NCBI RefSeq assembly: GCF_008124865.1
Contig: NZ_VNHY01000002.1
Location: 1-64,000, forward strand
Origin: Fodinibius salinus
GTDB taxonomy: Bacteria; Bacteroidota; Rhodothermia; Balneolales; Balneolaceae
Direction of reading: 5' to 3'
Length of the DNA stretch: 64,000 nucleotides
Below are positions 21,279-43,808 of this stretch, in pieces; the first letter of the stretch is position 1; the number at the start of each line of letters is the position of its first letter. The notes under the pieces are model-generated. The model saw only the letters and a program-made list of their open reading frames with translations. It had not been told where the DNA came from and made no database searches. Position numbers and translations under genes: made by a program.

Positions 21279-21325
21279 AATTTCTTGCTTTAGGTCATCC
21301 CCCTTACTCCCCCTTCAAAGGGGGA
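20878..21325 (-). mobile_element. 448-bp inverted-repeat-bounded element carrying a DUF559 ORF, inserted in the 5' end of hemF
   Basis: The ends are imperfect inverted repeats of 30-31 bp (20878-20907 and 21295-21325), identical at about 27 of 31 aligned columns. Each has a core of the form CCCCCTT(C/T)GAAGGGGG followed by GGGGGATGA. The only gene inside is the DUF559 reading frame, which starts at 21278, 17 bp inside the right end, and exits through the left end without a stop into hemF. There is no transposase. hemE ends 20 bp beyond the right end. Confidence 0.75.
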
Positions 21326-21344
21326 GATTGTGATACTAAGCTGT

Positions 21345-41898: not shown

Positions 41899-42473
41899 AG
41901 ATCCTGAAACAAGTTCAGGATGACAAGCCGTTATATTGTTAGGAGGTATGTCTGAATATTATCAATACCCGAAATTTCCTGTACTTTTCTTACACCTACT
42001 ATAGAAGTATAGCCAGTACATTTTAGACGATACTTTTTTAAAAGTTGTTTTCTTAATTCATTTGGAAGTAACAATTTTTGGCCAAAGATCTTTTAAAGAT
42101 GGGTTATGTTTCCTAATCAAATTAAACTTCCATTCTCTGTGCCAATTCTTAAGTTGCTTTTCTCGGTTAATAGCTCTTTCCAAATGTTTAAAGGACTCAT
42201 AATAAACCAAGTATTTGACCCTATATTTTTGAGTGAACTCAGATCCTCGACTGTGTCTATGCATCCAAATTCTCTTTACTAAATTATTAGTAACACCAAT
42301 ATAGAGAACTGATCTTGTCTTATTGGAAAGGATGTAAACATACCCTCTTTTCGTAACAATATTTTGAAAACGCATTTTATGTAGCTTTATAAGTAAGAGG
42401 GTATTCACACCTCATCCTTACAAATAAATATTTATTTAAAATCGCTTGTCATCCTGAACTTGTTTCAGGATCT
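41899..42473. mobile_element. 575-bp element: GIY-YIG ORF between perfect inverted REP hairpins
   Basis: The two ends (41899-41927 and 42445-42473) are perfect 29-bp inverted copies of each other. Each is itself a hairpin, with arms ATCCTGAA / TTCAGGAT around a 5-nt loop, then GACAAG on the inner side. The only gene inside is the GIY-YIG reading frame at 42058-42375. There is no transposase. The element lies in the recQ-ddl gap. Related hairpins occur alone at 50523 and 55068. Confidence 0.75.
42058..42375 (-). CDS. GIY-YIG single-domain nuclease
   Basis: This 105-residue protein (ATG at 42375; a GTG 33 bases upstream is possible) has a complete GIY-YIG core. YVYIL begins the first strand, LYIGVTNNLVKRIWMHR gives the YIG strand and the catalytic Arg, and LERAINREKQLKNW gives the metal-binding Glu. 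It matches the UPF0213/YhbQ-like short type. It is the only gene within an element bounded by inverted REP hairpins. The role could be DNA cleavage at a target or at the hairpins; that is inference. Confidence 0.85.
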   Translation of the reverse strand: MRFQNIVTKRGYVYILSNKTRSVLYIGVTNNLVKRIWMHRHSRGSEFTQKYRVKYLVYYESFKHLERAINREKQLKNWHREWKFNLIRKHNPSLKDLWPKIVTSK

Positions 42474-42617: not shown

Positions 42618-43808
42618 ATGAGTTCAAAAAATATTGCCGTAGCCTTTGGCGGTATCTCACCCGAACATGAAGTATCTGTACTCTCTGCCATGCAAGTAAT
42701 TGCATCCCTAAAAGAGAGTAGTTTTAACCTTATCCCATTATATATCACCAAATCAGGTCGCTGGTTAACGGGGACGCCTCTCCTGGAGCTCGAAAATTAC
42801 CAAGATCTTGACCAGCTCCGTAAACAGGCTACTGATTGCACCTTTTCACATAATGATATTGGAAAACCTATCCTCCTGGAAACTGAAAAAAAGAGCTTCT
42901 TCGGCAGTCGCGAGGAATATCCAATCTATGCTGTTATACCAGCCTTCCATGGCTCTGAGGGAGAAAACGGATCGTTCCAGGGCACCTGCGAAACGTATAA
43001 CATTCCCTATGCCGGCAGCGGTGTTTTTGCCTCGAGCATTGGCATGGACAAAGTTAAAGCAAAAGAGTTATGTCGGTCTCAAAACCTGCCCGTCGTTGAT
43101 GAGTTTGATTTCTTTGAAAAAGAGTGGGAAAATGACCAACAAACTATACTTCATTATGCCGAAAAACTGGAGTACCCGGTAATTGTAAAACCCACTACCC
43201 TGGGCAGCAGCATCGGTGTAACAAAAGCGGAAGACGAACAAGCCCTTATCGAAGCTATAGAAACTGCATTTCGGTACGATAATAATTTGATGATAGAAAA
43301 GGCAGTAACACCTTTAATGGAGATCAACTGCTCAGTACTTGGCACCCCCGAAGAGCTACAAACCAGCGTCTGTGAACGTCCACTAGGACAAGAAGAAACG
43401 CTCTCTTTTGAAGATAAATACCAGGCCGAAGGCGGACAAAAAGGAATGGCTTCTGCCGATCGGGTAATCCCCGCCGATATTCCTGATGCAATGACCGAAA
43501 AAATTCAATCTCTTTCTGAGCAGATCTTTAAAACTTTTCGGGCCAGTGGCATAGCTCGACTAGATTTCTTGATCAATGAAGACACAGAAGAAATCTTTTT
43601 CAACGAAATAAATACCATCCCAGGCTCATTTTCCTTTTACCTATGGGAAGAAAGCGGAATGAATATGAAAGAATTAATGCTACGATTAATTGATATTGCT
43701 ATAATACAACACCAACAAAAAATGGGACGTGTCCGCTCATACGATACAAATCTGCTTGATGAAAAGGCAATCAAAGGAATAAAAGGGCTTAAAGGATCCA
43801 ATGATTAA
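42618..43808 (+). CDS. ddl: D-alanine--D-alanine ligase
   Basis: This ATP-grasp enzyme makes the D-Ala-D-Ala end of peptidoglycan precursors. The 396-residue protein has VAFGGISPEHEVSVLSA at the start, HGSEGENGSFQGTCE, VKPTTLGSSIGV for ATP binding, and FNEINTIPGSFSFYLWEESG with the Mg-binding Glu and Asn. It overlaps the next frame at ATGATTAA, so the binding-protein gene may be translationally coupled. Confidence 0.95.
   Translation: MSSKNIAVAFGGISPEHEVSVLSAMQVIASLKESSFNLIPLYITKSGRWLTGTPLLELENYQDLDQLRKQATDCTFSHNDIGKPILLETEKKSFFGSREEYPIYAVIPAFHGSEGENGSFQGTCETYNIPYAGSGVFASSIGMDKVKAKELCRSQNLPVVDEFDFFEKEWENDQQTILHYAEKLEYPVIVKPTTLGSSIGVTKAEDEQALIEAIETAFRYDNNLMIEKAVTPLMEINCSVLGTPEELQTSVCERPLGQEETLSFEDKYQAEGGQKGMASADRVIPADIPDAMTEKIQSLSEQIFKTFRASGIARLDFLINEDTEEIFFNEINTIPGSFSFYLWEESGMNMKELMLRLIDIAIIQHQQKMGRVRSYDTNLLDEKAIKGIKGLKGSND

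Follow-up and report, generated by a model that had tools for sequence, protein, structure and literature searches.

A GIY-YIG nuclease gene framed by inverted CGTC-type REPs is a candidate for the missing enzyme of a bacterial repeat superfamily

In the genome of Fodinibius salinus, a gene for a small GIY-YIG nuclease is positioned between two inverted CGTC-type REPs. We consider it likely that this unit is a very small selfish element, consisting of the nuclease and its own hairpin ends, and that its nuclease subfamily serves the CGTC REP superfamily as a dedicated enzyme, in the way that RAYTs serve GTAG REPs. Short repeats of the CGTC type are widespread in bacteria, and Di Nocera et al. 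reported in 2013 no dedicated transposase and no linked enzyme for them (PMC3733652). Because the pairing of gene and hairpin recurs across many phyla, the nuclease is, on comparative grounds, the best candidate for the enzyme that disperses these repeats and that has long been missing. No publication linking this GIY-YIG subfamily to CGTC REPs was found in a search that did not include preprints and most subscription journals.

The unit in the Fodinibius salinus window

The window, i.e. the whole stretch of 64,000 nucleotides that was analysed, contains the following features.

41899..42473, no strand assigned: whole unit, composed of an inverted CGTC-type REP, the GIY-YIG gene, and an inverted CGTC-type REP; located between recQ and ddl, with an orthologous unit at the same place in Fodinibius halophilus
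41899..41924, minus strand: left REP hairpin, reads GTCATCCTGAACTTGTTTCAGGATCT, GTC tag toward the gene
42448..42473, plus strand: right REP hairpin, reads GTCATCCTGAACTTGTTTCAGGATCT, GTC tag toward the gene
42058..42375, minus strand: gene for the GIY-YIG nuclease; start probably the ATG at 42375, with the open frame extending at most to a GTG at 42408
41901..41908, plus strand: left copy of the 8-bp direct repeat ATCCTGAA common to both inverted REPs; deletion junction in a relative (G010)
42451..42458, plus strand: right copy of the 8-bp direct repeat ATCCTGAA
39640..41814, plus strand: RecQ-type helicase, flanking host gene that stops 84 bp ahead of the unit; named by sequence recognition only
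42618..43808, plus strand: flanking host gene of the D-alanine-D-alanine ligase type; named by sequence recognition

A preliminary description of this DNA had placed a GIY-YIG gene, as the only gene, between perfect inverted hairpins. This is exact at 41899-41924 and 42448-42473. The two REPs are identical over 26 bp, the perfect inverted match extends to 30 bp, and a longer alignment of 37 bp has 92% identity. Each hairpin has an 8-bp stem and a 5-nt loop, with an unpaired GTC on one side and CT on the other, and is predicted to fold as single-stranded DNA at -6.1 kcal/mol (z -3.8). The window has two matches to the hairpin core, for which the chance expectation is a mean of 0.02; none of 100 shuffles has two. 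The sole gene between the hairpins corresponds to the open reading frame 42058-42408 (minus strand), and comparison with the F. halophilus ortholog suggests that its true start is at 42375. The solo hairpins of the same kind that had been reported elsewhere in the window are not there, as the window holds only the two flanking copies. A GTCAT-headed stem-loop of another type is located at 21294-21328 (plus strand, GTCATCCCCCTTACTCCCCCTTCAAAGGGGGAGAT); such hairpins do not exceed their chance count.

According to PMC3733652, a CGTC REP has an unpaired YGTC tag, a stem of 8-9 bp that starts with AT, a loop of 4-5 nt, and a short tail; the superfamily includes dRS3 of Neisseria and RPE-4 and RPE-6 of Rickettsia, and among its members head-to-head dimers are the prevailing form. 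The window hairpins meet this description in tag, AT-started stem, short loop, and short tail, and fit as members of the known superfamily. A known RNA family was also tested for and was rejected. In 276 copies, the base ahead of GTC is C in 46% and T in 36%, T predominates in the tail, and conservation is not strong anywhere beyond the repeat edges. A target site common to the copies, which the preliminary description had proposed to look for, did not emerge among these 276 beyond their own Y-GTC...ATCT edges.

In pattern searches of the F. salinus genome, the degenerate hairpin pattern has 21 matches, and the reversed pattern has one. Dimers with the tags outside occur several times in this genome and many times in its relatives, although no systematic count was made. 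Solo and dimeric hairpins reading GTCATTCTGAACTTGTTTCAGAATCT are found at G000:C1:16941 and other positions of the genome (L011/L012, L016, L026/L027, L030, L014, and L021). These hairpins have extended flanks in common, about CAAAACTATCTCCATCTTGTC... on one side, and so make up a longer, MITE-like repeat, roughly 100-120 bp in length and present about six times. The hairpin pair at C1:1006123/1006862 was examined for a lost gene, and no GIY-YIG remnant was recognised between its members.

The window protein matches the Pfam family GIY-YIG (E = 1.9e-14) and otherwise only the related T5orf172. Its AlphaFold2 model has a pLDDT of 91, and the best structural matches are UPF0213 (1zg2), Slx1, and UvrC. 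Slx1, whose family includes E. coli YhbQ and B. subtilis YazA, cuts branched DNA in a structure-specific manner. Residues Y25, Y36, R46, H50, E83, and N102 are invariant in 58 sequences. Their spacing resembles that of the catalytic residues of Thermotoga UvrC: Y19, Y29, Y43, and N88, as named in the titles of PDB mutant entries, together with R39 and E76, which we take to be catalytic as well.

Recurrence and co-evolution of gene and hairpin

The preliminary description would have been contradicted by repeats that are not enriched around GIY-YIG genes, or by relatives that carry the gene without repeats. Both points were checked, and neither contradicts it. In the F. salinus genome, all three close GIY-YIG paralogs are flanked by CGTC-type hairpins, and neither of the two distant GIY-YIG genes is. 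In the clade closest to the window gene, a repeat lies within 300 bp of 24 of the 25 genes. In 59 related genomes, a hairpin is present within 700 bp of 49 of the 71 genes, and on both sides of 34 of them; the remaining 22 have no canonical hairpin within that distance, and some of these bear variant inverted repeats. In a motif-free test for inverted repeats, 40/71 genes exceed the 99th shuffle percentile, compared with 0/71 segments further out.

The enrichment is strong beyond the relatives as well. A set of 80 loci covers Bacteroidota, Balneolota, Ignavibacteriota, Pseudomonadota, Thermotogota, candidate phyla, and others. A CGTC-type hairpin lies within 400 bp in 70/80 of these loci, compared with 7/80 at 900-1300 bp; REPs are present on at least one side in 70/80 and on both sides in 45/80. 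The broad alignment gave no usable scan pattern and a closer one was used instead, which biases the set of 80 toward the REKQ[LI]K[NK]W subgroup. At the same loci, REPs occur in 104/140 spacers adjoining the gene and in 14/72 other intergenic spacers (p = 1e-14). Essentially no such hairpins are found around 14 GIY-YIG loci that are more distantly related, the majority of which lie in genomes with REPs.

Hosts of CGTC REPs listed in 2013 were compared at the level of species or genus. In Novosphingobium aromaticivorans, plasmid pNL2 carries the gene with a perfect inverted REP pair. The gene lies between two REP dimers in Azospirillum lipoferum, inside a dRS3 array in Neisseria gonorrhoeae, and among the host's own repeats in S. 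meliloti. An element of Rhizobium tumorigenes has no REP pair that could be recognised by script or by eye.

Several individual loci have further features. The third F. salinus paralog (L007, G000:C2:578762-579290) is flanked by three CGTC-type hairpins of two sequence types, with a tag-outside dimer on one side. On the A. lipoferum plasmid AZO_p3, the unit (L196), with a head-to-head REP dimer on each side, is located between sufB and sufC of an iron-sulfur assembly operon. The N. gonorrhoeae gene within the dRS3 array (L204), on a chromosome-sized record filed as a plasmid, is unannotated. At L086, L091, and L051, tandem copies of the GIY-YIG gene lie a few hundred bases apart, and in two of these cases the copies are near-identical.

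Hairpin type tracks enzyme clade within genomes. When hairpins are shuffled inside genomes that hold several enzyme paralogs and several repeat types, the observed Spearman correlation of 0.304 is not reached in any of 500 permutations (0.05 +/- 0.06). In these multi-paralog genomes, each paralog tends toward the repeat type of its relatives in other genomes. Repeat orientation is clustered on the enzyme tree, requiring 57 changes compared with 76.6 when shuffled. In the same tree, the Porphyrobacter sequences are nested in a Bacteroidota-Balneolota group, which suggests horizontal transfer. No phage homologs of the enzyme were found, so carriage by phages is not supported.

Enzyme copy number also correlates with repeat density (rho 0.75 in 59 genomes, 0.83 inside the family). 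The genomes are not independent, however, and the reversed control pattern correlates with copy number too, with weaker rho of 0.45 and 0.43, indicating that background accounts for some of the signal. A specific pattern whose reversed control is zero everywhere was searched in 247 genomes of the phylum; the enzyme is present in 48/53 repeat-positive and 75/194 repeat-negative genomes (odds ratio 15). One genome, G234, has 29 CGTC-type repeats and no detectable member of the enzyme family. The repeats of G234 include many heterodimers with a near-constant spacing of ~65 bp. As far as comparison can tell, co-mobility and co-evolution of enzyme and hairpin are supported.

Selection, element boundaries, and proposed mechanism

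Comparison of the coding sequences shows that the enzyme is under purifying selection with its active-site pattern intact. The dN/dS of the window gene against its F. halophilus ortholog is 0.08, and values range from 0.06 to 0.24 where computable; a simple counting method was used, and dS is often near saturation. Such strong selection, vertical inheritance between recQ and ddl in two species, and a fold near that of the structure-specific Slx1 would also be expected of a domesticated host function, in which the nuclease acts on REP cruciforms, by trimming or resolving them, or controls RNA that contains REPs, with the flanking REPs as regulatory sites of its own. This is unlikely, as presence is patchy, genomes hold up to ten diverged copies, many copies are broken, the loci are unrelated with edges at the REPs, and clades mix distant phyla.

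The edges are defined by comparing elements with each other. Elements at unrelated loci share homology across the gene and both REPs, as far as the outer edge of each, including pairs within one genome (L033 and L074 in G003; L040 and L062 in G016). In 61 pairs of non-orthologous elements, 92/169 alignment ends fall within 2 bp of the outer edge of a REP, where about 3 are expected. The likeness of the REPs themselves explains part of this count, but the sequence beyond the REPs differs. The unit between recQ and ddl is common to the window and F. halophilus (G004). In a third genome (G010), whose flanks are orthologous and whose Ddl stretch is closer to the window than that of F. halophilus (93% compared with 89%), only AGATCCTGAACTTGTTTCAGGATCT takes the place of the unit. 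This scar corresponds to the outer halves of both REPs, fused via the 8-bp direct repeat ATCCTGAA. In eight further members of the genus, the recQ-ddl spacer has no CGTC REP; in the stretch examined for a ninth (L186), the end of recQ was not found.

The same three states exist on Sphingobium plasmids, in the spacer between fnrL and a response regulator gene: TomMM7A and TomTYG46 have the full element, TYG74 and TYG64 have a symmetric fused hairpin, and TYG72 and TYG65 have no REP. Symmetric fused forms are rare in the 59 genomes, with 4 sites of the G010-scar form and 5 of the other form. In S. meliloti Ak57, two REPs with only parts of the element between them lie beside a full element, and by its sequence this pair is a non-autonomous derivative made by internal deletion. 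Comparison of Ak57 with K101 gave no clean empty site. No target-site duplication was recognised either, as the element-free sites (recQ-ddl and the Sphingobium plasmids) are too diverged or scarred. Comparison of loci thus shows the unit of inheritance to be REP-gene-REP, which is bounded by the REPs wherever it occurs at unrelated loci and which, at orthologous sites, may be present in one genome and missing in another. Its movement is inferred from these comparisons, and no transposition, cleavage, or binding has been observed.

The same boundaries bear on whether the REPs are landing pads, i.e. whether another enzyme spreads the CGTC REPs and a GIY-YIG cassette uses them as insertion sites. 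Insertion sequences that target REPs are known (PMC1525189), REPs are common in spacers, and some GIY-YIG genes sit in REP arrays. We regard this as quite improbable, given that each flank has a full REP and not one half of a split one, that hairpin type follows the enzyme paralog within one genome, and that the element-free sites in the eight readable genus members and on two Sphingobium plasmids have no CGTC REP. Moreover, Di Nocera et al. linked no other enzyme to CGTC REPs (PMC3733652).

A passenger association, in which mobile accessory genes and REPs gather by chance in the same dispensable spacers, is very hard to maintain. Genes and REPs are both found in intergenic DNA, and the reversed control pattern has its weak correlation with copy number, but the other spacers of the same loci are far poorer in REPs, more distant GIY-YIG genes lack them, repeat orientation is clustered on the enzyme tree, and hairpins match enzymes inside genomes. 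The hairpins are stem-loops near gene ends, but that they are mere transcription terminators for the gene and its neighbours can practically be dismissed, since no T run follows them, no terminator-like site was found in the region, conservation of the unpaired GTC tag is confined to one side, and termination needs no perfect identity of the two ends; an intrinsic terminator was tested for and rejected.

For the selfish element that we favour, recognition or cutting of the hairpin by the nuclease is plausible, an inference without binding or cleavage data. While the repeat is extruded or in single-stranded form, the Slx1-like protein would recognise the hairpin together with the unpaired YGTC tag, and it may nick at the foot of the hairpin. 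GIY-YIG enzymes hydrolyse DNA and are not known to form a covalent enzyme-DNA intermediate, so the enzyme probably only cuts, and strand transfer by the enzyme is unlikely. The segment thereby set free, REP-gene-REP or REP-REP, would then be copied or joined at another place by host repair; this route of insertion is our preferred guess, but a tentative one that may well prove wrong. On this view, solo REPs and head-to-head REP dimers would have been mobilised in trans, as non-autonomous derivatives, and loss between the REP arms would leave one symmetric hairpin scar. The scar may be made by the enzyme or by ordinary deletion between short direct repeats without it, and sequence cannot decide between the two.

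The broadest form of the proposal is a new class of mobile element whose sole enzyme is a GIY-YIG nuclease, hydrolytic and Slx1-like, that cuts the element's own hairpin ends and leaves insertion to host repair. This class would be the source of the whole CGTC superfamily in many phyla, including dRS3 of Neisseria and RPE-4 and RPE-6 of Rickettsia. On this we are evenly divided. With a small conserved nuclease subfamily that matches CGTC REPs clade by clade, the question of the missing enzyme is directly testable with one protein and one oligonucleotide. If the proposal is true, systems that combine REPs with a nuclease have at least two origins, each with an enzyme unrelated to the other, and many genes annotated only as 'GIY-YIG nuclease family protein' gain a function. 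If the enzyme is shown to move the repeats, the unit represents a new class of element.

Comparison with known systems

Alongside RAYT/REPtrons, the unit appears to represent a second REP-plus-enzyme system, independent of them and built on a nuclease of the Slx1/UvrC fold. RAYTs (REP-associated tyrosine transposases, IS200/IS605-like) are defined by inverted REPs on both sides, co-evolution, and a correlation of abundance (PMC2817692). The preliminary description had likened the layout to that of RAYTs with a different enzyme class, and this is supported, as all these hallmarks hold here. Like a REPtron, the window unit and its two paralogs have one small nuclease gene enclosed by inverted REPs, the enzyme co-evolves with the REP (0/500 permutations), the presence of the enzyme tracks the abundance of REPs, and the genome contains non-autonomous REPs and dimers. 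However, the enzyme is a GIY-YIG protein with the Slx1/UvrC fold and no HUH-tyrosine, and the tag is YGTC, of the CGTC superfamily, and not the GTAG of RAYTs. The defining HUH enzyme and GTAG tag were both tested for and are absent, ruling out a RAYT. In its workings the unit is like a REPtron, without being a RAYT.

The repeats resemble the CGTC REPs of PMC3733652 in the unpaired YGTC tag, the 8-bp AT-started stem, the 5-nt loop, the short unpaired tail, and the occurrence of head-to-head dimers. In contrast to that work, which identified no dedicated enzyme, a GIY-YIG subfamily is attached to the repeats here. The protein itself resembles the single-domain GIY-YIG proteins of the UPF0213/Slx1 type (E. 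coli YhbQ, B. subtilis YazA, 1zg2) in domain, fold, and small size. To our knowledge, YhbQ and YazA are encoded by single housekeeping genes without REP flanks.

The GIY-YIG homing endonucleases I-TevI and I-BmoI are likewise encoded by selfish genes, whose spread could use host repair. Unlike them, the unit has terminal hairpins, no intron, and no single homing site, and it occurs at many unrelated intergenic loci. The one conserved target site, often inside an intron, by which a homing endonuclease is recognised is lacking at these loci. MITEs are similar in their short length, their terminal inverted repeats, and their internal-deletion derivatives, such as that of S. meliloti, but the unit described here ends in hairpin REPs and is paired with an enzyme that is not among the known transposases.
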